Shown piece after piece: positions 4,876 to 45,023 of a DNA stretch of 64,000 nucleotides. The notes beneath the pieces are model-generated. The model ran no database searches. It saw nothing but the letters and a program-made list of their open reading frames with translations, and was not told the origin of the DNA. Within the stretch, counting starts at the first letter, position 1. The number at the start of each line of letters is the position of its first letter. Where the stretch lies: positions 62,001-126,000 of the forward strand of contig CANJGB010000004.1 in the NCBI GenBank assembly GCA_947473805.1. The letters are read 5' to 3'. This DNA is from Alphaproteobacteria bacterium (lineage in GTDB: Bacteria; Pseudomonadota; Alphaproteobacteria; Ferrovibrionales; Ferrovibrionaceae). Both the position numbers and the translations under genes were made by a program.

Positions 4876-5204
4876 GGCGTGTTTTGTATGCCGCTCCGAT
4901 TTTGCTGTTGCCGCTGCTGGCGCGGGCCGAGACCATGACGGCCGGCGAATTGCAGAAGCAGTGCGCCTCGGCCGCGGGCGCTGCCGCTTGCACCGCCTAT
5001 TTGCGCGGCGCGGTCGCGATGTATGCGGCGGTGAATGCCGAGATGAAGGAACTGTCCTGGTTCTGCCCGCCGCGCGACGGCGATTCCTCCGTGCTGCGCC
5101 AGCTCTACCTCGACTGGGCGAAAGAGAACGAACCGGCCATGCCCGGCCCGGCGATGAACGCGGTCAAGGCTGTGCTGCAGGACGCCTACGAATGTTCCGA
5201 TTAA
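4872..5204 (+). CDS. Secreted Rap1a/Tai-like protein
   Basis: This 110-residue protein has a clear signal peptide (MRRVLYAAPILLLPLLARAE). The mature part shows the Rap1a/Tai pattern: LQKQCASAAGAAACTAYLRG, a central FCPP, a segment spaced like yL-x2-P-x-A, and a C-terminal YEC. Four Cys are placed to form two disulfides in the periplasm. Founding members are immunity proteins for type VI amidase effectors, but many alphaproteobacterial relatives stand alone with no effector, as here. It overlaps the molybdopterin-binding gene by ATGA and is probably cotranscribed. The function is not established. Confidence 0.7.
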   Translation: MRRVLYAAPILLLPLLARAETMTAGELQKQCASAAGAAACTAYLRGAVAMYAAVNAEMKELSWFCPPRDGDSSVLRQLYLDWAKENEPAMPGPAMNAVKAVLQDAYECSD

Positions 5205-5258
5205 CCGCGTCCCTTCGTGTCTTACTGAAGCCATGACGACAATAAGAGGGAGGAAAAC

Positions 5259-6239
5259 ATGTTTCGCACATTGACCGCCATTCTCGGCGTCGCGCTCGCC
5301 ACCGCGGCGCTTCCGGCCGCGGCGCAGGACAAGTATCCGTCACACCCGATCACCATGATCGTGCCGTTCGCGCCGGGCGGCGCCACCGACATCGCGGCCC
5401 GCGCCATCGCGGACAAGCTCAGCGCTCGCCTCGGCCAGAACATCGTCATCGACAACCGTGCGGGCGCCGGTGGCGCGGTCGGTACGGTCGCGGCGGCCAA
5501 GGCGCCGGCCGATGGCTACACCATCCTCTACAATGCCAGTTCCACCATGTTCATCGTGCCCGTGCTGGAAAGCGTGCAGTTCGATCCGGTGCGCGACTTC
5601 TCGGTCGCGGTGCGCGCGGTGAAGCTGCCGCTGGTCATCGCCGCCTCGCCGACCCTCGGCGTGAAGGACCTGAAGGGCCTGCGCGAACTGCTGAAGGCCA
5701 ACCCGGAGAAATACGCCTATGGCTCGGCCGGCGCGGGTACGACCAGCCACGTCGCCGCCGCTGCGCTGGCGCAAATGGTCGGCGCGCCCGGCGTCGTGCA
5801 CGTGCCCTATCGCGGCACCGCGCCCGCCATCGTCGATGTGATCGGTGGCCGCCTGGCGTACATCGCCGACGCCATGGGCCCGCTCAGCGAGCATCTGAAG
5901 TCCGGCCAGCTGATCGGCATCGCGATCACCGAGAAGGAGCGGGCGTCGCAATTCCCCAACATCCCGACCATGGCCGAGGCCGGCCTGCCCGAATTCCTGG
6001 AATACACCTGGACGCCGTGGAGCGGCATCTACCTGCCCAAGGGCGCGCCGCCGGCGGTGATCGAGTTGATCAACCGCGAGACCCGCGCCGCTTTGGCCGA
6101 GCCGGAGCTGGGCAAGCGCTTGGTCGACCTCGGCTTCAGCACGATCAACGAGGATGTCGCGACGTCGCAGGCGCTGGTCAACAGCGATGCCCAGAAATGG
6201 GCGCCGCTGCTGAAATCCTTGAAGATCACCAGCAACTGA
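5259..6239 (+). CDS. TctC/Bug family tripartite tricarboxylate transporter substrate-binding protein
   Basis: The 326-residue periplasmic binding protein begins with a signal peptide ending near ALPAAAQ. YPSHPITMIVPFAPGGATDIAAR is the diagnostic Bug-family opening that contacts a carboxylate ligand. Further family blocks are VIDNRAGAGGAVGT, YGSAGAGTTSHVAA, HVPYRGTAPA and IPTMAEAGLPEF. A strong GGGAGG sits ahead of the ATG. No TctA or TctB membrane subunits are nearby, so it is an orphan binding protein that may serve a transporter elsewhere or act in sensing. The ligand cannot be predicted. Confidence 0.93.
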   Translation: MFRTLTAILGVALATAALPAAAQDKYPSHPITMIVPFAPGGATDIAARAIADKLSARLGQNIVIDNRAGAGGAVGTVAAAKAPADGYTILYNASSTMFIVPVLESVQFDPVRDFSVAVRAVKLPLVIAASPTLGVKDLKGLRELLKANPEKYAYGSAGAGTTSHVAAAALAQMVGAPGVVHVPYRGTAPAIVDVIGGRLAYIADAMGPLSEHLKSGQLIGIAITEKERASQFPNIPTMAEAGLPEFLEYTWTPWSGIYLPKGAPPAVIELINRETRAALAEPELGKRLVDLGFSTINEDVATSQALVNSDAQKWAPLLKSLKITSN

Positions 6240-16758: not shown

Positions 16759-16799
16759 CGACATGTGTTTTGGCTTCGGTCGAGCTCGTTGGGGGGGCC

Positions 16800-19187
16800 A
16801 TGCCCGACCATTATAAGATTGCCGTTGTTGGGTCTGGACCGGCTGGGCTAAGCGCCGCTGCGCATGCGGCGAAGCTCGGTGTCAGCCACGTGCTGCTCGA
16901 AAAGACCGACCACGCCTCCGACACCATCTACAAGTACCAGAAGGGCAAGCTCGTCATGGCAACGCCAGACGTGCTTCCGCTGCGTTCGGACTTCACGTTC
17001 GAGCGCGGGAACCGCGAGGGTATTCTGGATGCTTGGAACCAGGGTCTCGATGCCCTGAAGGTCAACATTCGCTACAATGCGGAAGTGACCGCGATCAAGG
17101 GCCAGAAGGGCGCTTTCGAGATCACCCTGCGCGACAAGTCGGTCGTCACTGCCGAGGCGGTGGTGCTGGGCATCGGCCTGCAGGGCAACCTCAACAAGCT
17201 GCCGATGCCGGGTGCTGAACAGCCGCATGTCCAGTATCAGTTGGATGACCCCGACGAATACGAGGGCGAGCACATCATCGTCGTCGGCGCCGGCGACGCG
17301 GCGATTGAGAACGCCGTCGCCCTGTCGAAGCAGAACACCGTCGCGATCATCAACCGTTCGGCCGAATTCGCCCGCGCCAAGCAGGGCAATATCGACCTGA
17401 TCCTGGCCGCCATCGAGAAGAAGCAGGTCGAGTGCTATTACAGCGCCGCGCCGCTTAAAGTTAACGCCAAGACCATGGTGCTGAAGACCGCCGACGGCGA
17501 GGCGGAGGTGCCGGCCGACCGCATCATCGCCCGTCTGGGCGCCACGGCGCCGCGCAAGTTCGTCGAAAGCACCGGCATCGCTTTCCCGTCGCCCGATCCG
17601 AAGTCGCTGCCCGAAGTGAGCGCGACCTACGAATCGAACGTTCCCGGCATGTACATCGTCGGCGCCCTGGCCGGCTGCCCGCTGATCAAGCAGGCGATGA
17701 ACCAGGGCTGGGAAGTCATCGAGTATATCGAGGGTCGCCGCCCGGACCCGGCCGACGAACCCCTGCTGCGCGAGCGGTTCAAGGGCCTCGGCGACGTTTC
17801 GGTCAGCGACGTGCTGGCAACGATCCGCGCCAATGTTCCGATCTTCGCTGAACTCAACGCGCTGATGCTGCGCGAGTTGATGATCGATTCGACGATCCAC
17901 CGGCTGAATCCGGGCGACATCGTCTTCAAGAAGAACGACTACACCAACACCTTCTTCACCATCGTCGAGGGTGAAGTCGGCATTCAGATCAATCCGGCCG
18001 ATCCGAACCAGCTCGTTGCGCTGAAGCAAGGCGAGTTTTTCGGGGAAATGGGACTGATCTCGGGCCGTCGCCGCACCGCTACTGTGGTTGCCAAGTCGGC
18101 GTGTATCCTTATCGAGACCCAGCGCCGCTCGATGATCAAGCTGATCAAGTCGGATGCCTCGGTAAAACGTGTGATGGACCAAACGGCCATTATCCGCCAG
18201 ATCCAGACCCATCTCGCGCCGCACGTGCCGAAGGAACAACTGGTCGATGTGGTGTCGACCGCAACGATCGAAAGCTTCTCCGCCGGCGATACCCTGTTCA
18301 ACCAGGGCGAAAAGGGCGATTCCGTCCACCTGATCCGCAATGGCTCGGTGACCATCTCCCGCCGCATCGGCGGCCGCGATACCGTTCTGTCCTACGTGCC
18401 CTCGGGCAATTACGTCGGCGAAATGGCGCTCCTGTCCGACCTGCCGCGCAGCGCGACGGTCAAGGCGGCGGTCGAAACGGAAACCATCAAGATCGATGGC
18501 GCTGCGTTCAAGTTGCTGCTGCAGCGCGCGCCGACGCTGAAGACCGAGATTGAGGAAACGTTCCGCGAGCGCGTCAAGCAGAACGAGATGATGGAAGGCC
18601 GGCCCGATGCCGGCGGCATCATCCAGTTCCTGGTCGAACAGGGCATCGGCGAGGGCACCGACGTCCTGCTGATCGATGAGTCGCTGTGCGTCCGCTGCGA
18701 CAATTGCGAGAAGGCCTGCGCCGAAACGCACCATGGCATTTCCCGTCTCGACCGCGAAGCCGGGCCGACGTTCGACTCCATCCACGTGCCGACCAGCTGC
18801 CGCCACTGCGAACACCCGCACTGCATGGCCGACTGTCCGCCGGACGCCATTCACCGCGCGCCCAATGGCGAGGTGTTCATTGAGGACAGCTGCATCGGCT
18901 GCGGAAACTGCACGCGCAACTGCCCCTATGGCGTGATCCAGCTCGCGGTTCAGCCGGAGCCGAAGCCCGGCCTGTTCCAGTGGCTGTTCTTCGGCATGGG
19001 CTTCGGCCCCGGCGAGGACATGTCGCAGCGTCACGTACCGCATCCAGGCAAGGCCAAACACGCCGTGAAGTGCGACATGTGCAAGGATATCGAGGGAGGC
19101 GCCTCTTGCGTGCGCGCCTGTCCGACCGGCGCCGCGATCCGCGTCAGCCCGGCGGAGTTCATGTCCCTCGCGACCTTGGCGCGGTAA
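16800..19187 (+). CDS. Flavoprotein fused to two cyclic-nucleotide-binding domains and a four-cluster ferredoxin
   Basis: The 795-residue cytosolic protein has three modules. Residues 1-330 are an FAD/NAD(P) oxidoreductase: IAVVGSGPAGLSAAAHAA binds FAD, IIVVGAGDAAIENAVAL binds NAD(P)H, and there is no CxxC disulfide as in thioredoxin reductase. Residues 355-480 and 495-600 are two cNMP-binding domains with intact phosphate cassettes (FGEMGLISGRRRTATV and VGEMALLSDLPRSATV). Residues 625-795 hold 16 Cys in four groups (CVRCDNC, CRHCEHPHCMADC, CIGCGNC, CDMCKDIEGGASC), as in DmsB/NrfC-type subunits with four [4Fe-4S] clusters. It probably passes electrons from NAD(P)H to the membrane protein encoded next, under cAMP/cGMP-like control. 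I chose ATG 16800 over the in-frame TTG at 16770 because a G-rich stretch precedes it. Confidence 0.92.
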   Translation: MPDHYKIAVVGSGPAGLSAAAHAAKLGVSHVLLEKTDHASDTIYKYQKGKLVMATPDVLPLRSDFTFERGNREGILDAWNQGLDALKVNIRYNAEVTAIKGQKGAFEITLRDKSVVTAEAVVLGIGLQGNLNKLPMPGAEQPHVQYQLDDPDEYEGEHIIVVGAGDAAIENAVALSKQNTVAIINRSAEFARAKQGNIDLILAAIEKKQVECYYSAAPLKVNAKTMVLKTADGEAEVPADRIIARLGATAPRKFVESTGIAFPSPDPKSLPEVSATYESNVPGMYIVGALAGCPLIKQAMNQGWEVIEYIEGRRPDPADEPLLRERFKGLGDVSVSDVLATIRANVPIFAELNALMLRELMIDSTIHRLNPGDIVFKKNDYTNTFFTIVEGEVGIQINPADPNQLVALKQGEFFGEMGLISGRRRTATVVAKSACILIETQRRSMIKLIKSDASVKRVMDQTAIIRQIQTHLAPHVPKEQLVDVVSTATIESFSAGDTLFNQGEKGDSVHLIRNGSVTISRRIGGRDTVLSYVPSGNYVGEMALLSDLPRSATVKAAVETETIKIDGAAFKLLLQRAPTLKTEIEETFRERVKQNEMMEGRPDAGGIIQFLVEQGIGEGTDVLLIDESLCVRCDNCEKACAETHHGISRLDREAGPTFDSIHVPTSCRHCEHPHCMADCPPDAIHRAPNGEVFIEDSCIGCGNCTRNCPYGVIQLAVQPEPKPGLFQWLFFGMGFGPGEDMSQRHVPHPGKAKHAVKCDMCKDIEGGASCVRACPTGAAIRVSPAEFMSLATLAR

Positions 19188-19193
19188 CAGCAC

Positions 19194-20081
19194 ATGGCCG
19201 TTCAGGACACCGTTGGAACCCATCAATCGATGCTGGTGTACCGGAATTTCCGGTACTTCAAGTGGGCAGCGCTGCTGGTTCTGGCGTCCGTCATCGCCTA
19301 TTGGCTGCACCAGCCGTTCGCCGGCGTGCCCAATGGCGGCACATGGCTTGGCTATGTCCTCGGCACGATCGGCGCCGGCATCATCTTCTGGCTGACTTAT
19401 CTCGGCATCCGCAAGCGGCGCTACGGCATCCACCGCGAGGGCGCCGGCAAGGACAAGCGCAAGGACGGCATCAAGCTTGAGGACTGGGTTTCAGCCCATA
19501 TCTATTTTGGCCTAAGCCTGATCATCGTCGCGACGCTGCATACCGGCTTCCAGTTCGGCTGGAACCTGCACACGCTGGCCTATGCGCTGATGATTATTGT
19601 CATCGTCAGCGGCATTTTCGGTGTCTACGCCTATATCCGTTATCCGCAGCTGATGACCGAAAATCGCCGCGGCCTCACGCTCAACAACATGCTGGCCCAG
19701 GTCGCCGATCTCGACAAGGAGATGCGCGGCATCACTATGAGCATGGGCGAGAACATCAACGCCGCCGTGCTGCGCGCCGCCCAGGAAACCCGCGTCGGCG
19801 GCAGTTTCGGCCGGATGCTCGCCGGCCAGGATGCCAGTTGCCCGACCACCGCGGCCCGCGTGCTGGTCGAACAGGTGGCGCATCAGCCTCATGACGACGA
19901 GGCGGCACTGCGTCGCCTGCTGTCATTGCTGGTGCGCAAGGAGGAACTGCTGCGGCGCGCCCGGCGCGACGTGCAGTTCTCCGCGCTGATGCAGATCTGG
20001 CTGTTTGTGCATGTACCGCTGTCGTTTGGGTTGTTGGCTGCGCTGACGGCTCATATCGTCTCGGTCTTCTTCTACTGGTAG
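19194..20081 (+). CDS. Membrane protein with two HX13H helices, predicted bis-heme cytochrome b
   Basis: The 295-residue protein has about five hydrophobic segments: two near residues 22-65, two in the middle (WVSAHIYFGLSLIIVATLHTGF and LAYALMIIVIVSGIFGVYAYI) and one at the C-terminus (WLFVHVPLSFGLLAALTAHIVSV). The first middle helix and the last helix each carry two His separated by exactly 13 residues, the spacing that binds two b hemes in ferric-reductase and NADPH-oxidase-type domains. A soluble loop of about 110 residues with Cys lies between. It starts 6 bases after the flavoprotein, so it is the likely membrane partner that carries electrons to quinone or to the periplasmic hemes. Confidence 0.72.
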   Translation: MAVQDTVGTHQSMLVYRNFRYFKWAALLVLASVIAYWLHQPFAGVPNGGTWLGYVLGTIGAGIIFWLTYLGIRKRRYGIHREGAGKDKRKDGIKLEDWVSAHIYFGLSLIIVATLHTGFQFGWNLHTLAYALMIIVIVSGIFGVYAYIRYPQLMTENRRGLTLNNMLAQVADLDKEMRGITMSMGENINAAVLRAAQETRVGGSFGRMLAGQDASCPTTAARVLVEQVAHQPHDDEAALRRLLSLLVRKEELLRRARRDVQFSALMQIWLFVHVPLSFGLLAALTAHIVSVFFYW

Positions 20082-20085
20082 CGCC

Positions 20086-21873
20086 GTGAAGATCTTCGTC
20101 AGCAATATCGTCAGGAAGGCACGCGGCGGCGTCGCTTATCGCGACAATGCGGTCGATGCACCGGCGGTGCGGTTCGGTCGTGGCGCCGATTGCGAGGTTC
20201 ACCTTCCCGATCCGCGCGTCCTGCTCAAGCACGCGACCCTCGAGGCGCGGGCCGGCGGCGTGTTCATCGACGCTAGCCCCAGCGCCGAGGTCACCGTAAA
20301 TGGTGCCGCGGCGACGGCCGCCAAACTCAATGTCGGCGACAAGGTCGGTCTCGGCCCTTATCAGCTGGAAGTCCTGGCCCCGCCCGAAGGACAGGAATTC
20401 GCCGTTTCGCTGGAACTGGTCCGTCCGCTTGGCGACGATCTCGACGAACTGAAGCAGCGCTCGTCGGCGCGCATCGACCGCGTCGGCTTCGGCAAGCGCG
20501 GCTGGTCGTACGGCCTGTTTGCAGTCATCGCGCTGGTATTCTTCCTGTGGCCGCTGGTGACGTTCCTCACCAGGCCGGCAGCTGATCACGCCTCGCTGAT
20601 GCAGGGCGATTCACGTGGCTTTATCGCTGCCAGCGACAAGCTGTGGCTCTCGGGCGAGATCTCGGGGCCGCACAAATTCTTCGGCGACAAGTGCGAGGGC
20701 TGCCACCAGAGTTCGTTCGTCCAGGTCAAGGACGAGGCCTGCATTTCGTGCCACGAGAAGGTTACCCACCACGTCGACGTGGTGAAGTTCCCCGATGCAT
20801 CCTTTGCCGCTGAAAGCTGTCAGAGCTGCCACAAGGAACATAATGGCGTCCGCGAGGCGGTGCTGCGCGACCAGAACTTCTGCGCCTCGTGCCATGCAAC
20901 GATCGAGAAGACCGCCGCAGCAGCCAACCTGTTGAACGCCACCGATTTCGGTCGCGACCATCCGCAGTTCCGCCCGACCGTCGTGACCGATCCGGTTGCC
21001 AAGAAGCTTGAGCGCATCTCGCTGGACTCGAAGCCGAAGGAAATGTCCGGTCTCAAGTTCCCGCACGACAAGCACCTGAACCCCAACGGCGTGCGCAGCC
21101 CTGACGCGGCGAAGCCGGTAGTGATGAACTGCGAGAATTGCCATGTGCCGGAGAGCGGTGGCGTGCTGTTCAAGCAGGTCAGCTTCGAGGCCAATTGCCA
21201 ATCGTGCCACTTGCTGCAGTTCGAGGCCCAGGCGCCCGAACGCCGGATGCCTCACGGCAAGCCGGCCGAAGCGCTGCAGGCGATCAAGGATGCCTATTCT
21301 TCCATGGCGCTGCGTGGCGGCTATAACGCGCCAACCGCACCGGAAGTCGTGCGCCGCCGTCCGGGCCTGCAGCCCCTGACGGCGCCGGAACGGCTTGAGG
21401 CCTTGGCTTGGGCCGACAGCAAGGCGAACGAAACCATCGCCGGTCATTTCGGCAAGGGCCGCTGCGCCGAGTGCCATGTCATCTCCGAAGGTGCGACGCC
21501 GACGACATGGGACGTCGTGCCCGCGACGGTCGCCAAGCGCTGGCTGACCAAGGGCCAGTTCGACCATGGCAAGCACCGCGACGTCGCTTGCGAATCCTGC
21601 CACGGCGCGCGTAATTCCAGTTCGGCCCAGGACGTGCTGCTGCCGGGCATGAAGGCGATGAAGTCGGTCGATACCCTGGCCGCACCCGACATCAAGGGTT
21701 GCCAGGATTGCCATGGCGGCGAACGCGCCGCTAACAAGGTGCCGTCGACCTGCATTTCCTGCCACCAGTTCCACGTCGATGGCATGCCGCCGATGCGAAA
21801 GGGCAAGTCGGCTTCGCTCCCGGTAGGTCATCCTGTGAACGTCGCCTTTACCGGCGGTTCCGCGCGCCAATAG
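20086..21873 (+). CDS. FHA domain-transmembrane-decaheme cytochrome c
   Basis: The 595-residue protein starts at GTG, 4 bases after the previous stop. Residues 20-95 form an FHA domain (VRFGRGADCEVHLPDPRVLLKHATLE, then VNGAAAT), which normally reads phosphothreonine in the cytosol. A transmembrane helix lies at about 138-162 (YGLFAVIALVFFLWPLVTFL). The remainder, predicted periplasmic, carries ten CXXCH motifs: CEGCH, CISCH, CQSCH, CASCH, CENCH, CQSCH, CAECH, CESCH, CQDCH, CISCH, plus free His for axial ligation. The spacing resembles cytochrome c3/c7-type chains. Joining a phosphopeptide reader to a multiheme wire suggests gated docking of the cytosolic electron donor, which is inference. 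Confidence 0.9.
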   Translation: MKIFVSNIVRKARGGVAYRDNAVDAPAVRFGRGADCEVHLPDPRVLLKHATLEARAGGVFIDASPSAEVTVNGAAATAAKLNVGDKVGLGPYQLEVLAPPEGQEFAVSLELVRPLGDDLDELKQRSSARIDRVGFGKRGWSYGLFAVIALVFFLWPLVTFLTRPAADHASLMQGDSRGFIAASDKLWLSGEISGPHKFFGDKCEGCHQSSFVQVKDEACISCHEKVTHHVDVVKFPDASFAAESCQSCHKEHNGVREAVLRDQNFCASCHATIEKTAAAANLLNATDFGRDHPQFRPTVVTDPVAKKLERISLDSKPKEMSGLKFPHDKHLNPNGVRSPDAAKPVVMNCENCHVPESGGVLFKQVSFEANCQSCHLLQFEAQAPERRMPHGKPAEALQAIKDAYSSMALRGGYNAPTAPEVVRRRPGLQPLTAPERLEALAWADSKANETIAGHFGKGRCAECHVISEGATPTTWDVVPATVAKRWLTKGQFDHGKHRDVACESCHGARNSSSAQDVLLPGMKAMKSVDTLAAPDIKGCQDCHGGERAANKVPSTCISCHQFHVDGMPPMRKGKSASLPVGHPVNVAFTGGSARQ

Positions 21874-23565: not shown

Positions 23566-23769
23566 CTTCCGCCGGGAGCGGGATTCAGGCGGACATCTGA
23601 TTTGCCTTTCCTAAACAGTTGCCTAACCGCCACCAGTGAACGGAAAAAAGCCGGACTTTTGATCGACATAGGTTCCCCGACCCCCTGAGATTTGTTAGTC
23701 TGTGTTGGGCGCGCGACTATCCGCGCCGGCGGGCATTGGACTGCACAACTTGGAACGGGTGGCATCCGC

Positions 23770-25146
23770 ATGAATGTCGGAACCAAAGTGAGCGGAACCT
23801 CTCGGTTCCTTCGGCAATATCGCGGCTTACTTCTCGCGGTAGGGACGCTGGCTGCCGTTTTCGGCCTGGCCGGGTCCGCCGGGGCGCAGACGCTGCCGCA
23901 GAATGCCTCTGACATCCATCTGGGCGTCGGCTCGTGCGCCGGTTCGACCTGCCATGGCGCCGTGACGCCGTGGCGCAATTCGACCGTGCTGCAGAACGAA
24001 TACGTCACCTGGCAGACCAAGGACACCCACGCGAAGGCCTATGCCACGCTGCTGAACGATGCGTCGAAGCGCATCGCGAAGAACCTGGGCCTGCCCAATG
24101 CGCACGAGGCGAAGATCTGCCTCGATTGCCACGCGAACAACGTATCCTCCAACCTGCGCTCGAAGACCTTCCAGCTCTCCGATGGCGTCAGCTGCGAGGC
24201 CTGCCACGGCGGCGCAGTGCGCTGGCTCGGCATCCACATTTCCGGCGTCGCTAACCACGCGCAGAACGTCGCGGCCGGCATGTACCCGACCGAAGACCCC
24301 TTGGCCCGTGCGAAGCTTTGCATGTCGTGCCACATGGGCACCGCGGACAAGTTCGTCACCCACAAGATCATGGGTGCCGGCCATCCGCGTATGCCGTTTG
24401 AGCTGGACACCTTCACCGCGACCCAGCCGGCGCACTATCGCATCGACGACGACTATCGTGCCCGCAAGAAAGTGGCCGATCCGGTCACGACTTGGGCCAT
24501 CGGCCAGGCCGTTGCGGTGCAGACCACGCTGGACGGCCTGACCGATCCGAAGCGCAACCGCCAGGGCATCTTCCCGGAACTGGTGTTCTTCGATTGCCAT
24601 GCGTGCCACCACCCGATGTCGAACGTTCGGTGGGAAGCGCGCGCCAGCACGGGCCTGGGCCCGGGCGTGCCGCGCCTAGCCGATGCCAACATGATTATGC
24701 TGCGCATCATCGTCTCGCAGCTGGAGCCGGCTTTGGGCCAGCGCATGCTGGAACAGTCGCGTGCCTTGCATGCCTCGACCGACCAGGGCACCGAGGCCGT
24801 GGCCGCCGCCGCCCGCAACCTGCGCGAAACGGTGACGCCGCTGATCGCCCGTCTGGCGCAGCAGCGCTTCGACGCGCCGCAGATGAACGCGCTGCTCCGC
24901 GGCGTGCTGCGCGAAGGCGTCAACCGCGAGTATGTGGACTATGCCGCCGCCGAGCAGGCCACCATGGCCCTGTCGGCAATCCTGACCGCCATGCGGCGCG
25001 CCGGGCATATCGATGAGGCCAAGTTCAAGGCCTACAACGAAGTGCTCGACCGCGCCTACAAGGCGGTCGAGAAGGACGAGGAGTTCCGCCCGGCGAACTT
25101 CGTGGCGGCGCTCAACGCGCTCGATCAGGTTGCGTCCCGGAACTAA
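23770..25146 (+). CDS. Periplasmic five-heme cytochrome c (c554-like)
   Basis: The 458-residue protein has a signal peptide ending near AGSAGAQT. Heme motifs are an unusual CX4CH (SCAGSTCHG, near residue 56), then CLDCH, CEACH, CMSCH and CHACHH. The opening resembles the cytochrome c554/c-prime superfamily. The C-terminal 150 residues (after LGPGVPRLADANMIML) lack hemes and look helical. It is predicted to be a soluble periplasmic electron carrier between the FHA-decaheme protein and outer-membrane components. A 204-base gap precedes it, so it may have a separate promoter; I saw no clear one. ATG chosen over an upstream in-frame extension because the signal peptide starts there. Confidence 0.88.
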   Translation: MNVGTKVSGTSRFLRQYRGLLLAVGTLAAVFGLAGSAGAQTLPQNASDIHLGVGSCAGSTCHGAVTPWRNSTVLQNEYVTWQTKDTHAKAYATLLNDASKRIAKNLGLPNAHEAKICLDCHANNVSSNLRSKTFQLSDGVSCEACHGGAVRWLGIHISGVANHAQNVAAGMYPTEDPLARAKLCMSCHMGTADKFVTHKIMGAGHPRMPFELDTFTATQPAHYRIDDDYRARKKVADPVTTWAIGQAVAVQTTLDGLTDPKRNRQGIFPELVFFDCHACHHPMSNVRWEARASTGLGPGVPRLADANMIMLRIIVSQLEPALGQRMLEQSRALHASTDQGTEAVAAAARNLRETVTPLIARLAQQRFDAPQMNALLRGVLREGVNREYVDYAAAEQATMALSAILTAMRRAGHIDEAKFKAYNEVLDRAYKAVEKDEEFRPANFVAALNALDQVASRN

Positions 25147-25804
25147 AAGGGTCGGCAACAGGACCGGTGCCCGGAGCGGGGTCGCCGCTCTAGCCGCCCT
25201 GTTCCTGTTCGGTGGCGTTCACGCTGCGTCCGCCGAATCCGTGCGCCAATTCGACGACTGGTGGATCGATTGCGTCCGTGTTGCCGATGGCGTGGCCGGC
25301 CCGGCCGGGCGCTGCGCGGCACGCACCTATTGGCGGGATTCCATTTCGCTGCTGGTGCTGCACCGCGACGGCCATCCCCTGGTGCTGGTTCAGACCGCCA
25401 ACAACATCGCTTTCGACCGTGGCGATTCCGTCGGTCTGCAGGTCGGCCGCGGCCGGCAGCACACCGTCACGCCGCAGCGGTTGCAGACCGCGATCTTCTC
25501 CGGTGAGGAGGGCGAGCAGATTGTCGCCAACTGGAAAGAGCTGGAAGGCAGCGGTGCGGACTCAAGCTGGTTCTCGAAAATCCTGACCGACAGCAACGAT
25601 GTCGTCGTCCAGGTTCGCCAGATGCGGGGCAGTGGAAGGATCGCGCGCTTTTCCCTGAAGGGATTTAGCCTCGCCATGGCCGCCTTGTCCGACATGGAAT
25701 CCGGAGAGGTGCCGCCGGCGGAAGCGAGTGCCGCGCCCGCGCCGTCCTCCGGCCCGAATGCCGTGGACGACCTCTTGAAACGGGTGCTGGAGCTGTTCCG
25801 CTAG
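25130..25804 (+). CDS. IalB-like secreted protein
   Basis: The frame has a signal-like segment (ARSGVAALAALFLFGGVHAASA) and a mature region with the invasion-associated-locus-B pattern: FDDWWIDCVRV...GRCAART, two Cys about 19 residues apart, then SLLVLHRDGHPLVLV and a C-terminal region rich in Ala/Pro. The only plausible start in frame is TTG at 25130, which overlaps the end of the cytochrome gene by 17 bases. IalB relatives are common periplasmic proteins of unclear role in alphaproteobacteria. The family call is tentative. Confidence 0.6.
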   Translation: MRPGTKRVGNRTGARSGVAALAALFLFGGVHAASAESVRQFDDWWIDCVRVADGVAGPAGRCAARTYWRDSISLLVLHRDGHPLVLVQTANNIAFDRGDSVGLQVGRGRQHTVTPQRLQTAIFSGEEGEQIVANWKELEGSGADSSWFSKILTDSNDVVVQVRQMRGSGRIARFSLKGFSLAMAALSDMESGEVPPAEASAAPAPSSGPNAVDDLLKRVLELFR

Positions 25805-25811
25805 AAGCGGA

Positions 25812-26312
25812 TCAGAGGCTGTCCGGATTGCCCGGGCGCATGTCGCCGACGATCAGCGCCCGCACATTTGCACCATGGCCGGCGACGACCGGACCCGATA
25901 CCCGCAACTGCATGCAGAAACGGTCGCGCTTCAGGTGCGGCCAGGGCGCCACGACGCACAGCGTGTGCTGCTCGTCGTCGATGGTCCAGCTGCCAACATC
26001 CACCGCCTCGTACTTCCCATCGACCTCGTTCCAGCGGCGCACGCGCGCGCTGTGATCGGCGTTGAGATACACGATGGCGTGTTGCGAGCCGATGGACTGC
26101 GAACCTCGTCCCTTGGCCAGGACCACGGGCTCGTCGAACGTCACATTGGCATTGAAGGAAAAGGTTTTGCCGCTGAGGCTTTCACTCAGCTTGGCAACGG
26201 GCTTTTCCTCCTTCGGCGCGGCTGCATGACCGCCGTGGTCGTCGGCCGCAAAAGAGACCGGTATCCAGGCGCCCAGCAGAAGCGCCAGCGCGGCGAGCGG
26301 GACGATTCTCAT
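25812..26312 (-). CDS. Small secreted protein, last gene of the minus-strand redox operon
   Basis: The 166-residue protein has a signal peptide ending VSFAADD, then a short His-containing DDHGGHAAAPKEEKP stretch that could bind metal. The rest is beta-rich (KTFSFNANVTFDEPVV, HAIVYLNADHSARVRRW, GSWTIDDEQHTLCVV) with two Cys that may pair. I do not recognise a family. The ATG overlaps the stop of the giant cytochrome (ATGA), so the two are coupled, and a role in maturation or docking of that cytochrome is possible. It converges with the IalB-like gene, 7 bases apart. Confidence 0.75.
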   Translation of the reverse strand: MRIVPLAALALLLGAWIPVSFAADDHGGHAAAPKEEKPVAKLSESLSGKTFSFNANVTFDEPVVLAKGRGSQSIGSQHAIVYLNADHSARVRRWNEVDGKYEAVDVGSWTIDDEQHTLCVVAPWPHLKRDRFCMQLRVSGPVVAGHGANVRALIVGDMRPGNPDSL

Positions 26313-29300
26313 TTCGGGGTCGCCTCGGCCCGGGTGGCGCGCGCCGGCGGCACGAACCCGTTGGGCTCGGGCGTGTCGGTCACGGTCCACAGCTGCTTGC
26401 GCGCATCCAGATAGAACTGGCGCTGCTCGTCGAGGGTGAAGGGCCGCGAACCCAGGCGGCCGAACACGGCGATCTGGCCACCGGTTTCATCCACGCCGCG
26501 GTCGCGGTCCAGACCCTTGGACAACGAAAGTGCCGGCTGTGCGGTTTCCTTCCAGGCGATCAGCTCCGGCTTCGGATCGGGGCTGAAGCCATAGAGGTTC
26601 GGCTGCGATTCCGGCGAGGTCAACTGCACCACCTTCAGGCCGCCAGCGCCATCGGCCACGTAGGCGAACAGCGAGGCGTTGGTCGTGCCGACGATAACGT
26701 CATAGGCGTCGGCGATGCGGCCATCGGCGGTGAACTTCGCGTAGATCTTCGGCTGATCGGGGCGCTCGACATCGACGATGACGAGGCCTTCCTTGCCGCC
26801 GGCGACGTAGGCGAAGGTCCGGGCGAGATAGACGCGACGGGCATCGGCCAGCGGAACCAGTGCGCTTTCAATTACCTGCGGCTTTTCGGGATCGGTCACA
26901 TCGACCACCGACAGGCCGCGCGGCTCGGTCACCCACAGGTAGCGGAACTGCAGGGCCGTGGCCCGGGCATTGGCGACCGGAATGGTCGTGACCGTCTTCG
27001 GGTGCAGCGGGTCGTTCATGTTCAGCACCACGACGCCGCGCGGGGTCGAGATATAGAAGTAGTAACCCGCGATGGTGATGTGGGTGGCGCCCGTCAGCAC
27101 GCCGCCCTCGTTCCAGGTCAGCGCCCGCTTCAGGAAGTTGTTGCGCGGCTCGCCGTCGACCAGCGTATCCACATTGACCACGACCAGGCCTTCTTCGGAG
27201 TCGGTGATGAAGGCGTAGTCGTAGATCGGGTGGAACGGCTGTTCCTCGTTGTCCTGGTACATCAGCTTGCGCGTCGCTTCGTCCTTCTTCTGACGCTGCG
27301 GCGCGATCGCCTGGTTGGTCGGCAGGGCCATGCAGGTGGCGTTCTTGGTGGCCACATGGGTGTCGTGGCCCAGGGCGCTGAACGGGCCGGTCAGGATGCG
27401 TTTGGAAATGCCCTTGTTGGCGATGGCCGAGACGTCATAGGCGATGAAGCCGTTCGTGCCCTCGGCCACGAACAGGTACTCACCGCGCAGCTGCAGACAG
27501 GCGGCACGACCGCCGGAGTGCCTGAACGAACCCAGTGCCGCGGTTTCCGGCAGGCGCCGGTTACGGTCCTGATGTTCCCTGTACCAATCCGGATAGGCGT
27601 AGCGCTGCAGGTAGCTGCCGATAACCGCCTGGGGCTCGTCCCACTCGGTGACCTGGATGGCCTCGACGCCCTTCTCGACGCCCAGCCAAGCGTTGTATCC
27701 GACGAAGTTCACGAAGTTGGTCCCGTGCAGCAGCAGCTGGGCCATGATTGCGTTGTTGTCGTTGTTCTTCGAGACGTGGCAATCGGTGCAGGTCTTGGTT
27801 TCCTCGCGCCGCTCGGTATGCGGATAGTGCGGTGCGAACGCCTGGCTGGAATAGCCTGATGCGGCGATAGGCGGCTGCTGGATGTAGATGCGTTCGCGGT
27901 TGATGTTGGTCGACGACAGGATCAGTGCCGAGGTCGAGCGTATCGGCGCGATGGTGTTACCCTTGGTCGTCTGGTGACGGCCAAGCTGGAACATGTCATC
28001 GCGCGCAACCTGCGGATTGTAGGTCGCGAAGTTGCGGGTCTCGCCGCCCTCGTACTTGTGCCGCTCAGTCTTCCAGTTGGCCTGGATAGGCAGGTGGCAG
28101 CCGGCGCATGACGTTGTCCATGACAGATGGCAGGTGAAGCACTCCATCTCTTCTTCACCGTGGGCGCGGTCTTCCTTCTTCACGCCGGGGCCCCACTTGA
28201 TCGGGCCATCGGCGATGTGGTTGTCCCACTTCGCCGTCAGCTTGGCGCGCGCCGCCTTCTCGTTGTAGCGCGGGTTGTCCGGGTTGACGGTGTCCTTGAC
28301 CAGGCTGACTTCCCACTCGCGTTGAGAGTCGAGCGCCGAGCGCTGGATCAGCTTGCAGTCGCGGTCCTGTGTTGCCGGCAGGCCGCATTCCGTGCCGCGC
28401 CATTCGAAGCGGCGGCGGCCGTCCTGCAGGCGCAGCAACGACAGGTCGCTGCCACCCGGCGGGGCGGCGGGGCCGGACGTGTGCAGCGTCGGATAGATGC
28501 TGGCCGTGCCGTGGCAATCGCGGCAGCGGATTTCGATGGCGTTCGCCACCTCGCCGTACAGATAGCCGCTGCCGTGCGAGTCCTGCGCGAAGTGGCAGTC
28601 GATGCACTGCATGCCGGCATCGACGTGAATCGACGACAGGTGAACTGCCTTCTTGAATTTCTCGCGGTCGTTTTCCGCGACCTTGCGACCCTGGGCATCG
28701 AGCAAATTGCCCTTGCGGTCGCGCTTGAAGATGGCGCGGAAGTTCCAGCCGTGGCCGTGATAATCGGCCAGTTGCACGTCGGTCTGGTCGGGGTTCATCT
28801 CCCAGACCTGCTTCACGAACTCGACGTCCGACCAGTTGCCGCGGATGACCGCTTCTTCCGGGTTACGCTCGAGTGCTTTGTGCATCTCTTCGTTGTTCAG
28901 GTACTTCTGCTTGGCCGGGAACATCTTCGGCGAACCCGCCTCGTAGTCCCACATGGTGTAGCCGAGCATCGAGTTGAGGAAGATGTTCGGCTGGTGCATG
29001 TGGCAGTTCATGCACTGCGCGGTCGGGATCGCGCGGGTGAACTCGTGGCGGACCGGGTGGCCGGACTCGTTCTTCGGGATCGTCGGATCGGTCGAGAAGC
29101 TCTTGCCGTCATTGCCGTAGTTCGACCAGAAGCCCGAATGGCGCGGGTCGCGGTCGTTGGCGTAGACGACGTGGCAGCCGCCGCAGCCCGAGGTGCGGTA
29201 GTCGCCCGGCTGGTCGTTGGTGCCCATGAACCACATGAACGGATCGTTCAGGCGGGTTTTGGTGATGTTGATGACCGGCACCGCGATGCGCAGGCCCGTC

Positions 29301-30199
29301 GCCGGGCCGCGGTTGGACTGGCGGATGTCAGGACGGCCGTTTTCCTCAAGGCGCTGGATCGAGCCCGGGCCGCCGGTCGCGATGTTCGGCAGGCCGATTT
29401 CGGGGAACTGGGTCGAAATGTTGCGCCCGCCGCGCTCGAACACACGGAAGATGTCGCCTGGCAGGGTAACTTCCCACGCCGGCAGCGGGGCGAATTGCGG
29501 CAGCACGCCGCGGGCCTTGGTCATTTCTGGGGTGATCTCGCCCGGGCTCTTGATCAGCGCCGGCTCGCCCTCGCGCGTATAGGCCTCGCCGATGATGTAG
29601 TTCTTGAAGGGCAGAATGCCGTTGTTGTACGAGGCGCCGCCCCACAGCATCGCGCCCGTCGCCATCAAGCTGCGCTCGGCCGCCTGGATGATCGGCAGGT
29701 GGCAGGCGCCACACGCCTCGCGCGCGACTCGGTAATCCGACGGATTGACGAAGCGGACATATTCGGGGCTTTCCCGGTTCAGCAGCGTGTAGCTGCGTTC
29801 CGGGTTGGCGCTGCTCGGGAAGTGCCAGGCATGCGGATAGCGCGGCAGGACGTGCGCCTGGTCGCGGACCTTGGCGTAGTTCTCGACGCCATCCTTGGCG
29901 CTGACACTGATCTTGGCGTCGCCGCCATGGCAGTCGGTACAACCCAGATTGACGGCCGGGTTGGCGTGCATGGTGAGGCTGTCAGTGGTCGTGTGGCACG
30001 ACAGGCAGCCGGCGCTCTTTTCGCGCGCGGCATCCGGACTCTGCATAAACGGCGCGTCCGGCGCTGTGGTGTAGTTGATGTTCTGGGGCTTCTCGCCTTC
30101 AGACGCAAACAAGGGGGCGGTCGCAAGAAGGGCGATAGCAGCACACGCGGCCACCAATACTGCCCTAAGACCGATACGACGTTCCAGCATGCCCCCCAT
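26309..30199 (-). CDS. Decaheme cytochrome c with LVIVD-type repeats (1296 aa)
   Basis: A signal peptide (ending APLFASEG) leads to a large secreted protein. Ten CXXCH motifs lie between residues 63 and about 805: CLSCH, CTDCH, CGACH, CGGCH, CMNCH, CIDCH, CRDCH, CFTCH, CAGCH, CTDCH, separated by long loops. Residues about 890-1190 form repeats of the LVIVD type (GEYLFVAEGTNGFIAYDV, YAFITDSEEGLVVVNVD, YLWVTEPRGLSVVDVTDP, FAYVAGGKEGLVIVDVE), which probably fold as a beta-propeller. Such size and architecture suit a periplasmic or surface electron-transfer protein. It starts 18 bases after the outer-membrane barrel gene. Start could be ATG 30199 or 30190; a G-run precedes the second. Confidence 0.92.
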   Translation of the reverse strand: MGGMLERRIGLRAVLVAACAAIALLATAPLFASEGEKPQNINYTTAPDAPFMQSPDAAREKSAGCLSCHTTTDSLTMHANPAVNLGCTDCHGGDAKISVSAKDGVENYAKVRDQAHVLPRYPHAWHFPSSANPERSYTLLNRESPEYVRFVNPSDYRVAREACGACHLPIIQAAERSLMATGAMLWGGASYNNGILPFKNYIIGEAYTREGEPALIKSPGEITPEMTKARGVLPQFAPLPAWEVTLPGDIFRVFERGGRNISTQFPEIGLPNIATGGPGSIQRLEENGRPDIRQSNRGPATGLRIAVPVINITKTRLNDPFMWFMGTNDQPGDYRTSGCGGCHVVYANDRDPRHSGFWSNYGNDGKSFSTDPTIPKNESGHPVRHEFTRAIPTAQCMNCHMHQPNIFLNSMLGYTMWDYEAGSPKMFPAKQKYLNNEEMHKALERNPEEAVIRGNWSDVEFVKQVWEMNPDQTDVQLADYHGHGWNFRAIFKRDRKGNLLDAQGRKVAENDREKFKKAVHLSSIHVDAGMQCIDCHFAQDSHGSGYLYGEVANAIEIRCRDCHGTASIYPTLHTSGPAAPPGGSDLSLLRLQDGRRRFEWRGTECGLPATQDRDCKLIQRSALDSQREWEVSLVKDTVNPDNPRYNEKAARAKLTAKWDNHIADGPIKWGPGVKKEDRAHGEEEMECFTCHLSWTTSCAGCHLPIQANWKTERHKYEGGETRNFATYNPQVARDDMFQLGRHQTTKGNTIAPIRSTSALILSSTNINRERIYIQQPPIAASGYSSQAFAPHYPHTERREETKTCTDCHVSKNNDNNAIMAQLLLHGTNFVNFVGYNAWLGVEKGVEAIQVTEWDEPQAVIGSYLQRYAYPDWYREHQDRNRRLPETAALGSFRHSGGRAACLQLRGEYLFVAEGTNGFIAYDVSAIANKGISKRILTGPFSALGHDTHVATKNATCMALPTNQAIAPQRQKKDEATRKLMYQDNEEQPFHPIYDYAFITDSEEGLVVVNVDTLVDGEPRNNFLKRALTWNEGGVLTGATHITIAGYYFYISTPRGVVVLNMNDPLHPKTVTTIPVANARATALQFRYLWVTEPRGLSVVDVTDPEKPQVIESALVPLADARRVYLARTFAYVAGGKEGLVIVDVERPDQPKIYAKFTADGRIADAYDVIVGTTNASLFAYVADGAGGLKVVQLTSPESQPNLYGFSPDPKPELIAWKETAQPALSLSKGLDRDRGVDETGGQIAVFGRLGSRPFTLDEQRQFYLDARKQLWTVTDTPEPNGFVPPARATRAEATPK

Positions 30200-30217: not shown

Positions 30218-32104
30218 CTAGTAGGTAAGAATTGCGTTGAACAGGACCGAATAGAACTGACGCTTGCCACTATCAGGATCGGCAGCAAACAGGTCCTTAA
30301 ACGCCTCGCCACCGAACAGCATGGCGCCCGAGGCGCGGAACACGATGTTCTGGATGAAGGTCGGGCGATAGATCAGCGCGGCCGAAACGTCCCAGCCGAT
30401 GTCCTTGCTGCACAGGCGCGGCAGGGCGCCGAGTGTAGGCTGCACGCCCAGCGGCAGCGCGTCGCAGTCGTTGCCCTGGTTGCGCAGTACAGCGACGACT
30501 CCGGTCTCGTCGAACCACAGGTGGTTGACGTTGGTCGACAGGCGCAGTTCAGGCGTGATGTCGATATCGGCGCCGGCGCCGACCAGGATCAGGCCCGGAT
30601 TGACGAAGTTCGACTGGCCCAGTTCCTTGGATGACCGCAGGCTGTTCAGGATGCCGTTGCGGCCGGACAAGGCCACGCCGCCGCCACCGATCAGCGGCAC
30701 GCCCTGGCGAATCCAGTAGCTGGTGTCCGCACCGGCGAATTGCGGGTTCTCGAAGATCGCGTCGAAGCCGGTTTCCTTGCCGTCGTACGGGTCCTTGTCG
30801 CCCGACTGGTACAGGAAGCTGCCGCGCAGGCGCAGCCAGTTGAAGTCAATTGATGGTTCGGCCGCGAAGAAGAAGGCGCGGATATCGGCCTTCGTGTCGC
30901 GTGTGATCGAGGTGAACTGGCTGGCGTCATTCTGGCCGATGGCGGCGTAGAACTGGTGCGTCAGGTTCAGGCGGCCGAAATGGCCGTCGCCGGCGAGGCC
31001 GAGATAGGTAACGTCGTAATCGTGCGGGCGCTGTACGCCCAAAGCCGAGGGGCGCTCCACGAAGCCGTTGCTGTTAAAATAGCTTTCGCGCTCGCGGTTG
31101 CGGTTGTGGGTGACCGACACCTGCGAGGTGAAGCCGACGACCGGGAAGTCCTGCTTGTAGAGGTTGGCCATGAACACGTCATCGTCGCGCAGGGACTGCG
31201 TGATGTCGTTCAGGCCGGAATTGGTGTCCTTCTCGACGCGGCGGAAGGCGCCGACATTGTATTGCCACAGGTTGTTGTCGCGCGTGCCGAACACGCGGAC
31301 GCCCAGCTGGTTGTCCTGGAACAGGAAGCCACGGAAGTCGGCGGTGATCGGCTGGATGCCGACGCGGAGCGAATCGAAATCGTAGCGGTCGGACACGTTG
31401 CGCAAGTGGTAGTCCACGAACGCTTCCTGGATGCCGATGAACGTATCGGTGCGCTCGTTGCCCTGCTGCGGGTTCACGCGCAGGACCTGGTCTTCCTTGG
31501 CCCAGACGCGATTGTACTGCATGGCGGGCGTCACGCGGAATTCGTAGTCCGGCGGCCGGAACGCGGTGTTGCCCTTGATGAACGAGATCGACGGTATCAA
31601 CGTCGTCACGAACAGGTTCTGGTCGACGCGGCCGAACGCGTCGAGGCGCGAGCGCGAGTCGGCGCTGCCGGTCAGCGAGACCGGCTGCGGGAAGCTGCGC
31701 GGCTCGTAAACGGTGTCCGAGATCACCGACAGGTTGACGAACCAGTCCTCGCCGAAGACCGGCTTGTCGCCCTTCAGCGTGTTCTGGTTATACGGGTCCC
31801 ACCAGCGCTCGCTCAGGCCCAGCGATTCCATGATGCGCCAGCGGTCCGGCACGGGAATCGACTCGCGCGGCAGGATAGGCGAGGGCGGGGGCACCGCCTT
31901 CGGATCGATCGGCGGCAGGGTAGGCAGCGGGGCTTGCGGGCCGGGACGGCGGCGGGTGCCGTCATCTTGCGCCATCAACACGCCGCCACCGGCGTCGCGG
32001 AACTCGTAGAAGTCTTCCTTGCCGGCACGGGCCGGCGTTGACGCCATGCCCAACGCCGCCAGGATGACGGGCAGGGCAAAGGATATGCGGATGAACTTTG
32101 TCAT
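30218..32104 (-). CDS. Outer-membrane beta-barrel protein, possible porin partner of the multiheme cytochrome
   Basis: The 628-residue protein has a signal peptide (ending STPARAG), then a 90-residue periplasmic stretch including a Pro-rich segment (PGPQAPLPTLPPIDPKAVPP). The remainder alternates short polar turns and amphipathic strands, such as YEFRVTPAMQYNRVWAKED and LNLTHQFYAAIGQND, ending in FYSVLFNAILTY with the terminal aromatic typical of outer-membrane barrels. Length suits roughly 20 or more strands. No named family recognised. The ATG overlaps the stop of the HbpS-like gene, and the giant cytochrome follows 18 bases later. This recalls porin-cytochrome conduits, although no MtrB signature was identified. 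Confidence 0.78.
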   Translation of the reverse strand: MTKFIRISFALPVILAALGMASTPARAGKEDFYEFRDAGGGVLMAQDDGTRRRPGPQAPLPTLPPIDPKAVPPPSPILPRESIPVPDRWRIMESLGLSERWWDPYNQNTLKGDKPVFGEDWFVNLSVISDTVYEPRSFPQPVSLTGSADSRSRLDAFGRVDQNLFVTTLIPSISFIKGNTAFRPPDYEFRVTPAMQYNRVWAKEDQVLRVNPQQGNERTDTFIGIQEAFVDYHLRNVSDRYDFDSLRVGIQPITADFRGFLFQDNQLGVRVFGTRDNNLWQYNVGAFRRVEKDTNSGLNDITQSLRDDDVFMANLYKQDFPVVGFTSQVSVTHNRNRERESYFNSNGFVERPSALGVQRPHDYDVTYLGLAGDGHFGRLNLTHQFYAAIGQNDASQFTSITRDTKADIRAFFFAAEPSIDFNWLRLRGSFLYQSGDKDPYDGKETGFDAIFENPQFAGADTSYWIRQGVPLIGGGGVALSGRNGILNSLRSSKELGQSNFVNPGLILVGAGADIDITPELRLSTNVNHLWFDETGVVAVLRNQGNDCDALPLGVQPTLGALPRLCSKDIGWDVSAALIYRPTFIQNIVFRASGAMLFGGEAFKDLFAADPDSGKRQFYSVLFNAILTY

Positions 32105-34077
32105 TTGCCGCGACACGCTTCCTGTTCGCGGGAACCGTTGAACGGTTTGAACGGACACGACACGTAGCGCGGCGCGATGCCCTGGATCTGCCGCTGGTCG
32201 ACGCGGATGCCAGGCGCCGCATTGCCGAGGCCGTTGGTCGCGCCATTGTTCAAGCCGAGAAACGCCGCCATGTCGTCCTGATCGATGCCGTCGCCGGAAA
32301 TTCCGATGGCGCCGACCATCACGCTCCCGCGCCAGATTGATACGCCGCCGGCAAAGATCTGCATGCCGTTCGCCAGCAGCGTCGGGCCGCCGGCGGTCGG
32401 CCGCGATACCTGCGGCGCTGTGCCGGCGGTGACGCCCGTCGCATTGTTGGTGTTGGACACGCAACCGGCTGCCGCGTCGGACAGGGCCGACCCGCCAAGG
32501 CGCGCCACGATGTCCGGCAGGACGAGATCTAGCTGCAGGCCGACATTGAAAGGGCTCCACTGGCCGAATGGCAGGCTCAACGAGCCATTGCCGTTGCCAT
32601 TGACCCCGTCAGGATAAAACGGCCGCGCAAGGTTGCCGATCGAGCGGGCGCCCCAGGCGGTGCCGTCCGCGAAAATGTTGGCGTAGGCGAAACCACGCGA
32701 CGTCGCTATGTAGCGCGCGACGCCGGGAACAGTGAACGCAGCGTTGACCGTATAACCAGCCTGGTTGCCGGCGGAGGTCAGATCAGCTGCCGCGTTCGGC
32801 GTAGCAAGCGCCGGATTGTTTTGCGACATGAACCCGGCGGTACGGGCCTTCTGCAGGCTGACGTCGGTGCCGAACACGGGCGCGTCGGGTGTCCTGGCGA
32901 TACCCAGAACGTTCGCCTCGTTGTCCACGACCGAAACCGTGGCCTCCATGAAGCTGCCAAGCGGCTGGCGAATCGCGGCGCGCGCGCGGTACATGACGAA
33001 CAGCGCCTGGGTGATGATGTTCGTGACTTCCGGCGCCGTGAGCCGGTCACCGGCCGCGAGGGATGCCGCCGCGCTGGCGGTCGGGGGGAAACGATTTGCG
33101 CCCGCGCCATTGTCCAGAATGACGGCGGGAAGGCCGCCGAAAGTGACATTGTCTCGCGAATAGCCGGAGGCCGACGTGCCGTACGCCGTGCCGGCGCGTG
33201 ACGCGCCGGCGGTGAAGTAGCCCGCCACTGCAATGAAGGCGCCGCCCGCCGGTGCCGCCGGCGCCGCCCCCGGGTTGCTGGCAAGATCACGATTGTCCAC
33301 GTCGCTGTACCGCAACGTGCGCCCACCGGCGGAAATACGATACGCCTTGATCTGTTCGGGCGGTTCGAAGCCGGTCTGTCCGGCAATGGCGACCAGTTCG
33401 TCAACGCTACGGTCGTAGTCCCCGATGAAACGGTCGAGCGTGTAAAGGCCATCGGCCTCGACGCCGATGCCGCCGACCACCTGCCCGTTGATATAAAGAG
33501 GCAAGCCGCCGGGATCAGCCGAGAGGCCGAGCGGAGAACGGCGCGGCCCGATGCCCAATGCAGTGCCGGAAGAGGCCGCAGATCCCGTCAGGTCAGAGCA
33601 GGGCAATTGGCTGAACTGCACACCGAATAGCGGGCCGCCGGCCTGGAACGTTTCGCCGACGTTGAAATTCTCCTGCACGATCTGGCTGGCCGTGCGGGTC
33701 GTGAAGGCATTGCCACTCGAGGAGAGATACGCGCCCGTGATGGCTTTCGCGACGGCAGCAAGGCCACGGCCTTCCACGGCAACGCCACCGGTGCCCAGGG
33801 TCACGCTTTCAAGACCGTTGCCCAGCGGTATGTTGCGGCCGGACGTGATCGTGACGGCGTCGCTTCCGCCAGTCATCCGGAATACGCCAAGGATGTTGCC
33901 GACGCGATCAGACACCGCGACCGTGGCCAGAACACCCCGCGCCTGGGCTTCCTGCACCGCCCGGCTGAGGATCAGATCGACTTGGCCAGCCGTGAGGTTC
34001 TGCGCCCGGGCCGGCCCAGAGAGGCAGGCAGCGACTGCGCACAGGGCCAGAAGGGTGGATTTGACCCGCAGTCTCAT
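32101..34077 (-). CDS. Secreted protein with two GlcG/HbpS-like domains
   Basis: The 658-residue protein has a signal peptide ending GPARAQN. The first domain (about 25-260) begins LTAGQVDLILSRAVQEA and has VAVSDRVGNILGVFRM; the second (about 345-640) begins LTAPEVTNIITQAL and has VSVVDNEANVLGIAR and VSLQKARTAGF. Both match the GlcG/HbpS fold, whose members can bind heme or cobalamin-like ligands, and both retain the closing GGVSIWRGSVMVGAIGISGDGIDQDD type of motif. Between them is a Gly/Ala-rich linker. Heme handling would suit its place between a barrel protein and multiheme cytochromes. Ligation residues cannot be judged by eye. Confidence 0.8.
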   Translation of the reverse strand: MRLRVKSTLLALCAVAACLSGPARAQNLTAGQVDLILSRAVQEAQARGVLATVAVSDRVGNILGVFRMTGGSDAVTITSGRNIPLGNGLESVTLGTGGVAVEGRGLAAVAKAITGAYLSSSGNAFTTRTASQIVQENFNVGETFQAGGPLFGVQFSQLPCSDLTGSAASSGTALGIGPRRSPLGLSADPGGLPLYINGQVVGGIGVEADGLYTLDRFIGDYDRSVDELVAIAGQTGFEPPEQIKAYRISAGGRTLRYSDVDNRDLASNPGAAPAAPAGGAFIAVAGYFTAGASRAGTAYGTSASGYSRDNVTFGGLPAVILDNGAGANRFPPTASAAASLAAGDRLTAPEVTNIITQALFVMYRARAAIRQPLGSFMEATVSVVDNEANVLGIARTPDAPVFGTDVSLQKARTAGFMSQNNPALATPNAAADLTSAGNQAGYTVNAAFTVPGVARYIATSRGFAYANIFADGTAWGARSIGNLARPFYPDGVNGNGNGSLSLPFGQWSPFNVGLQLDLVLPDIVARLGGSALSDAAAGCVSNTNNATGVTAGTAPQVSRPTAGGPTLLANGMQIFAGGVSIWRGSVMVGAIGISGDGIDQDDMAAFLGLNNGATNGLGNAAPGIRVDQRQIQGIAPRYVSCPFKPFNGSREQEACRGK

Positions 34078-38943: not shown

Positions 38944-38954
38944 ACGCTCCACCC

Positions 38955-40166: not shown

Positions 40167-40173
40167 TCGCGCC

Positions 40174-42828: not shown

Positions 42829-42898
42829 GGGGCCGCCAGCGGTTGCGCCATGCGGGACCAGCGTATAGTTTCCGACCGTCCATGATCGCGCACCGAAA

Positions 42899-44966: not shown

Positions 44967-45023
44967 CCTCCGCGAATCGGGATAACGCTTTGTTTTTCCG
45001 TCGATTCTGCTAAGGTTATCCAC

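Follow-up and report, generated by a model that had tools for sequence, protein, structure and literature searches.

The gene at positions 16800 to 19187 of the window, as we call the entire 64,000-nucleotide stretch of DNA analysed here, encodes a chain (protein A) in which a flavoprotein, two cyclic-nucleotide-binding domains (CNBs) and a 16-cysteine ferredoxin are combined, raising the question of where such a protein would pass its electrons and whether a second messenger might control their flow. The reading that is somewhat favoured from sequence is that A serves as the cytoplasmic subunit of a module formed with the two genes that follow it (B and C), connecting NAD(P)H with a multiheme conduit of the PCC3/PCC4 kind and switched by cAMP or cGMP. 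The features of gene A, with residues numbered from the TTG codon at 16770, are as follows.

16800..19187, + strand: gene A, FAD/NAD(P), CNB-A, CNB-B and a ferredoxin with four predicted [4Fe-4S] clusters in one protein (Pfam and alignment)
16812..17708, + strand: FAD-NAD(P) domain of the YpdA/TrxR fold, residues 15-313 (Pfam, AF2 model, YpdA alignment)
17883..18155, + strand: CNB-A, residues 372-462 (Pfam and alignment)
18042-18074, + strand: phosphate cassette of CNB-A, residues 425-435, GEMGLISGRRR (alignment)
18237..18530, + strand: CNB-B, residues 490-587 (Pfam and alignment)
18417-18449, + strand: phosphate cassette of CNB-B, residues 550-560, GEMALLSDLPR (alignment)
18672..19163, + strand: DmsB/HycB-like ferredoxin domain, residues 635-798 (Pfam, NCBIfam, alignment)

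The open reading frame of gene A extends from the TTG at 16770 to 19187 (805 residues); the ATG at 16800 represents the better start and was taken as such, in agreement with the start given by the first-pass annotation. That annotation had placed FAD/NAD(P) binding, two cNMP domains and four groups of cysteines in a single chain, and the Pfam search returned the same layout, with a Pyr_redox_3 match at residues 19-298 (E 1.7e-29), two cNMP_binding stretches (protein E 9.7e-37) and several Fer4 models at residues 671-788. The two CNBs scored 70.2 and 64.1 bits against cNMP_binding (PF00027), for which the curated cut-off is 27.5. No transmembrane helix is evident in A and no signal peptide was recognised by eye, and A was therefore treated as cytoplasmic. 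The AF2 model of A, built without ligands or partners, was of moderate quality (pLDDT 78, pTM 0.58).

Protein A is no one-off, but belongs to a bacterial family that is widespread far beyond chance. Homologs were collected from 289 genomes of the class (present in 26 at E <= 1e-60), 398 genomes of the phylum (full-length or nearly full-length in 15), contigs of named genomes (80 loci) and Sphingobium plasmids, and the family comprises over a hundred loci in Alpha-, Beta- and Gammaproteobacteria, including marine SAR116, Methylotenera and Gallionella MAGs. The alignment contained 104 homologs (81 at 90% non-redundancy), with a median pairwise identity of 53% and a minimum of 42%. The 16-Cys ferredoxin proposed earlier was confirmed as four cysteine groups (CxxCxxCxxxC, CxxC-x4-CxxxC, CxxCxxCxxxC and CxxC-x8-CxxxC), all 16 residues being invariant in 104/104 aligned homologs and predicted to form four [4Fe-4S] sites. 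In NCBIfam, this part of A is nearest to the HydN, NrfC, DmsB and ArrB type. AegA and YgfT likewise combine a HycB-like ferredoxin, which matches that of A, with a pyridine-nucleotide flavoprotein, whereas their domain order is opposite, their flavin part belongs to another family and they carry no CNB.

The flavin domain, which carries GSGPAG and GAGDAA motifs, has a fold in common with YpdA (Bdr) and the TrxR-like ferredoxin-NADP reductases. The AF2 model superposed on YpdA (7a76; Z 29.6, rmsd 3.8, 307 aligned) and also on thioredoxin reductases, while the TrxR-like ferredoxin-NADP reductases superposed less closely (fold matches 3ab1, 3lzw and 6gar). YpdA is also the nearest NCBIfam family (133.6 bits), which, together with the fold, could point to disulfide reduction as carried out by thioredoxin reductase or YpdA; such an activity is nevertheless most improbable, as this score lies far below the TIGR04018 cut-off of 339.9, the thioredoxin reductase model TIGR01292 gave 60 bits against a cut-off of 343.45, and the flavin part contains no CxxC. 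Moreover, in an alignment to solved YpdA, the cysteine of the YpdA GGGPCGL motif corresponds to Ala25 of A, at which position 98/102 homologs have Ala, Gly or Ser and just 4 of 104 have Cys. The sequence evidence thus supports the view that A is neither a thioredoxin reductase, as had been argued earlier from the missing redox CxxC, nor a YpdA disulfide reductase. Unlike YpdA and the TrxR-like ferredoxin-NADP reductases, A combines the lack of YpdA's cysteine with fusion to CNB and ferredoxin modules, and would most naturally hand the electrons of FAD over to its own clusters. Behind the second Rossmann strand, an Asn-Arg pair (N195 in 101/104 and R196 in 99/104 homologs) would fit a preference for NADPH, by analogy with thioredoxin reductase.

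The putative recipients of these electrons are encoded immediately downstream.

19194..20081, + strand: gene B, inner-membrane protein, predicted di-heme b (motifs; AF2 pLDDT 88.6)
20086..21873, + strand: gene C, FHA domain, one transmembrane helix (residues 143-161) and decaheme c-type cytochrome with 10 CxxCH (Pfam, motif count)

Gene B starts 6 bases past the stop of A, and gene C starts 4 bases past the stop of B; B is the next gene after A in 101/108 loci, and the order B-C is kept in 97. Protein B carries WX3HX13H at residues 98-116 and 269-287 and SGIFG at residues 139-143, with both WX3HX13H motifs present in 100/101 B genes and the four motif histidines invariant in 32 relatives. A fold search with B returned helical-bundle noise and no known cytochrome b fold, its profile gave coiled-coil noise only against the PDB, and its Pfam match to cytochrome b561 fell below the cut-off. 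Ten CxxCH motifs were found in 65/73 C genes. In the FHA domain of C, Gly-Arg is kept in 72/72 sequences, while the Ser/Asn positions associated with phosphothreonine are not; because only Gly-Arg is invariant, a role in phosphothreonine recognition was judged unlikely, and the domain may be a structural FHA.

Loci L114 and L115, from two genomes of the same genus, encode A and B as in-frame fusions of 1125 and 1120 aa, respectively, in which the ferredoxin C-terminus of A continues through a short linker into the first helix of B. The fusion goes back to a single evolutionary event; no other observation argues as strongly for a contact between B and the Fe-S end of A. The designation of A as a 'respiratory entry enzyme' in the first-pass annotation was retained as far as a cytoplasmic entry to an electron chain is concerned, since A is followed by (and once fused to) a putative di-heme b protein and followed by a decaheme cytochrome; the term is too general, however, for what is predicted to be a trans-envelope conduit of the PCC3/PCC4 type. 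A seeming A-B fusion of 1154 aa in L010 and L049 was rejected, its ORF being out of frame. Gene A was also observed without B or C in L016 and L051 (marine alphaproteobacterial MAG); in L051, the longer locus, no multiheme cytochrome lies within 10 kb on either side of A.

Beyond C, the window encodes candidate periplasmic and outer-membrane components.

23692..25146, + strand: gene D, tetraheme cytochrome c554-like protein with 4 CxxCH (near A in many relatives)
26309..30199, - strand: gene E, secreted LVIVD-repeat decaheme cytochrome with 10 CxxCH (Pfam, motif count)
30218..32101, - strand: gene F, predicted outer-membrane beta-barrel (signal peptide, C-terminal aromatic residue)
32101..34077, - strand: gene G, secreted HbpS-like protein (kept adjoining F and E)

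The relatives of F end in Tyr or Phe in 36/36 cases; F itself matched no Pfam or barrel family, and its profile matched none of the solved structures. Downstream sequence of 9 kb or more was available for 54 loci; of these, 34 carry the E-F-G set (LVIVD decaheme, predicted barrel and HbpS-like protein), four (L052, L054, L057 and L071) combine A-B-C with 5-heme and 4-heme cytochromes, and 14, mostly from Methylotenera and Gallionella, contain A-B-C with no outer conduit nearby. In L052, A-B-C is followed by a sensor kinase, a barrel-like protein, the 5-heme and then the 4-heme cytochrome.

This arrangement resembles PCC3 and PCC4, predicted extracellular electron transfer clusters put forward for Fe(II) oxidation, whose inner-membrane proteins are described as containing the same motifs as B, five transmembrane helices and two proposed b-hemes (He et al. 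2017, PMC5566968). As described there, PCC4 shares with the A locus an inner-membrane signature (two WX3HX13H plus SGXXG, both found in B), 4- and 10-heme cytochromes, a barrel (as predicted for F) and genes for other redox proteins, and the main text of the paper names no cyclic-nucleotide domain (PMC5566968). The PCC4 cytochromes are, however, reported to carry 4, 5 and 10 hemes (PMC5566968), as opposed to 10 (C), 4 (D) and 10 (E) in the window, where an LVIVD decaheme takes the place of the 5-heme cytochrome; the 4/5/10-heme composition was instead found in L052, L054, L057 and L071, and L052, with its barrel-like gene, reproduces the set published for PCC4. On account of its heme numbers (10, 4 and 10), the window was not filed as PCC4 but considered a related, distinct arrangement. 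With PCC3, the locus of gene B shares an inner-membrane protein of ~300 aa with two WX3HX13H motifs and SGXXG, a barrel (again as predicted for F) and multiheme cytochromes, whereas the PCC3 cytochromes have medians of 34 and 21 hemes and the largest of the window cluster have 10 CxxCH. Gene C, in turn, probably corresponds to cluster 403 of a Gallionellaceae pangenome, a 'Forkhead-associated protein' with 10 CxxCH in 27/87 genomes for which no function or partners are given, the correspondence being drawn from that description (PMC10734462).

The domain layout, the residue invariance, the A-B-C order and the A-B fusion are observed; as their best explanation we infer that the cofactors are loaded, that electrons take the path given below in the outward direction and that a bound nucleotide gates them. 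A, B and C would constitute a three-part inner-membrane module linking NAD(P)H to a multiheme conduit across the envelope. Electrons would enter at the NAD(P)H and FAD sites of A, proceed to the four [4Fe-4S] clusters at its C-terminal end and pass from there via the two b-hemes of B to the periplasmic decaheme of C and, where present, to further multiheme cytochromes and the outer-membrane barrel. The path from NAD(P)H through FAD, four [4Fe-4S] clusters and heme b to heme c is considered probable. The two CNBs lie between the flavin and Fe-S modules of A, where cAMP or cGMP might alter how flavin and clusters meet and thereby switch electron flow.

An outward flow of electrons appears fairly likely on thermodynamic grounds. 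The conduit might instead operate inward, with Fe(II), Mn(II) or another donor outside the cell reducing the cytochromes and then B, and A reducing NADP+; He et al. 2017 put forward PCC3/PCC4 for Fe(II) oxidation (PMC5566968), and the A homologs of Gallionella MAGs would be in keeping with such a role. This direction is nevertheless regarded as unlikely, since high-potential donors require an energy input for the reduction of NAD(P)+, for which no unit was seen in the module, and many hosts of A are not known iron oxidisers; to our knowledge, this applies to SAR116, Colwellia, Methylotenera and Sphingobium. The 14/54 loci with no outer-membrane partner nearby would accord with a module that supplies periplasmic c-type cytochromes only and forms no part of an extracellular system. 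That restriction is rather improbable as well, given the predicted barrel and LVIVD cytochrome in 34/54 loci and the PCC4-like sets in four.

Gating of the electron flow would act through the CNBs. The first-pass annotation had described both phosphate cassettes as keeping Gly-Glu and Arg, which was borne out across the family, G425/E426/R435 of CNB-A and G550/E551/R560 of CNB-B being invariant in 104/104 homologs. Apart from this, the CNBs show much the same conservation as the flavin domain (mean 0.63 vs 0.66), so that the strict constraint falls on the residues for the ligand; of the 98 positions of CNB-B, only 6 reach >=99% conservation, Glu551 and Arg560 among them. The cassette of CNB-A is unusual in having GRRR in place of x-P-R (residues 432-435, 18063-18074), with the triple Arg conserved, and this domain also contains an invariant Glu449 (18114-18116) followed by a near-invariant Arg452. 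Neither the GRRR stretch nor the invariant Glu449 is typical of CNBs, and in view of the unusual cassette CNB-A may differ in ligand specificity or could bind something else. Retention of Glu and Arg is common among CNBs; of seven other CNBs in the host genome, which served as a control, five keep both residues and two have lost both. Class III cyclases gave 13 matches in the host genome and were found in 32/33 other A-bearing genomes tested, the exception being a 1.2 Mb assembly, making gating by cAMP or cGMP possible; as class III cyclases are widespread among these groups, their co-occurrence with A constitutes weak evidence. In L071 (Solimonas terrae), whose locus also holds 4-, 5- and 10-heme cytochromes, a class III cyclase gene is located at 4961-5557, ~4.5 kb from A; as this is the single adjoining case among the loci collected, no linkage between cyclase and A is claimed.

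The invariant residues suggest that the CNBs of A quite likely bind a cyclic nucleotide and, if they do, direct gating would be a similarly likely consequence; taken together, direct allosteric control of electron flow between NAD(P)H and the trans-envelope conduit by cAMP or cGMP through the two CNBs is put forward tentatively. CNB folds that bind no cNMP exist, and with the electron path unchanged, the CNBs could serve for dimerisation, act as a spacer or bind a different ligand, to which the non-standard GRRR cassette with its three conserved Arg and the two host CNBs that have lost Glu/Arg lend some weight. We consider this unlikely, in that both CNBs keep their Glu and Arg without exception in the 81 non-redundant sequences, in contrast to the FHA domain of C, in which the phosphothreonine Ser/Asn positions are not kept. 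In mycobacterial Pat acetyltransferase and in PKA/PKG, cyclic-nucleotide domains act on the enzyme with which they share a chain or complex; the CNBs of A gave matches to such domains, which govern acetylation or phosphorylation, whereas electron transfer is proposed for A.

Should cAMP or cGMP bind to the CNBs, a second messenger would directly control the export of electrons to the periplasm or the cell exterior, which, as far as we know, would be new for an electron-transfer enzyme and is testable on one purified protein. The A family is a candidate cyclic-nucleotide-binding cytoplasmic electron partner for the predicted PCC3/PCC4 conduits, for which no such partner was identified in the accessible literature. 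The conduit clusters and the FHA cytochrome are already known; the cyclic-nucleotide-binding subunit is apparently new, no description of it having been found in the papers searched, among them the main text of the PCC4 report.

Within positions 15000-38000 of the window, no Rfam elements were detected. Two hypothetical proteins without a Pfam family are encoded between D and E (25013-25804 and 25812-26390). The cytochrome genes are followed by a type II secretion cluster (37258-47303; GspE, GspF, PilN-like protein, N-methylated pseudopilin and GspD secretin), which could export the outer cytochrome; in Ferrovibrio relatives, GspE and GspF are also encoded near gene A in L036 and L040, and GspE in L035.
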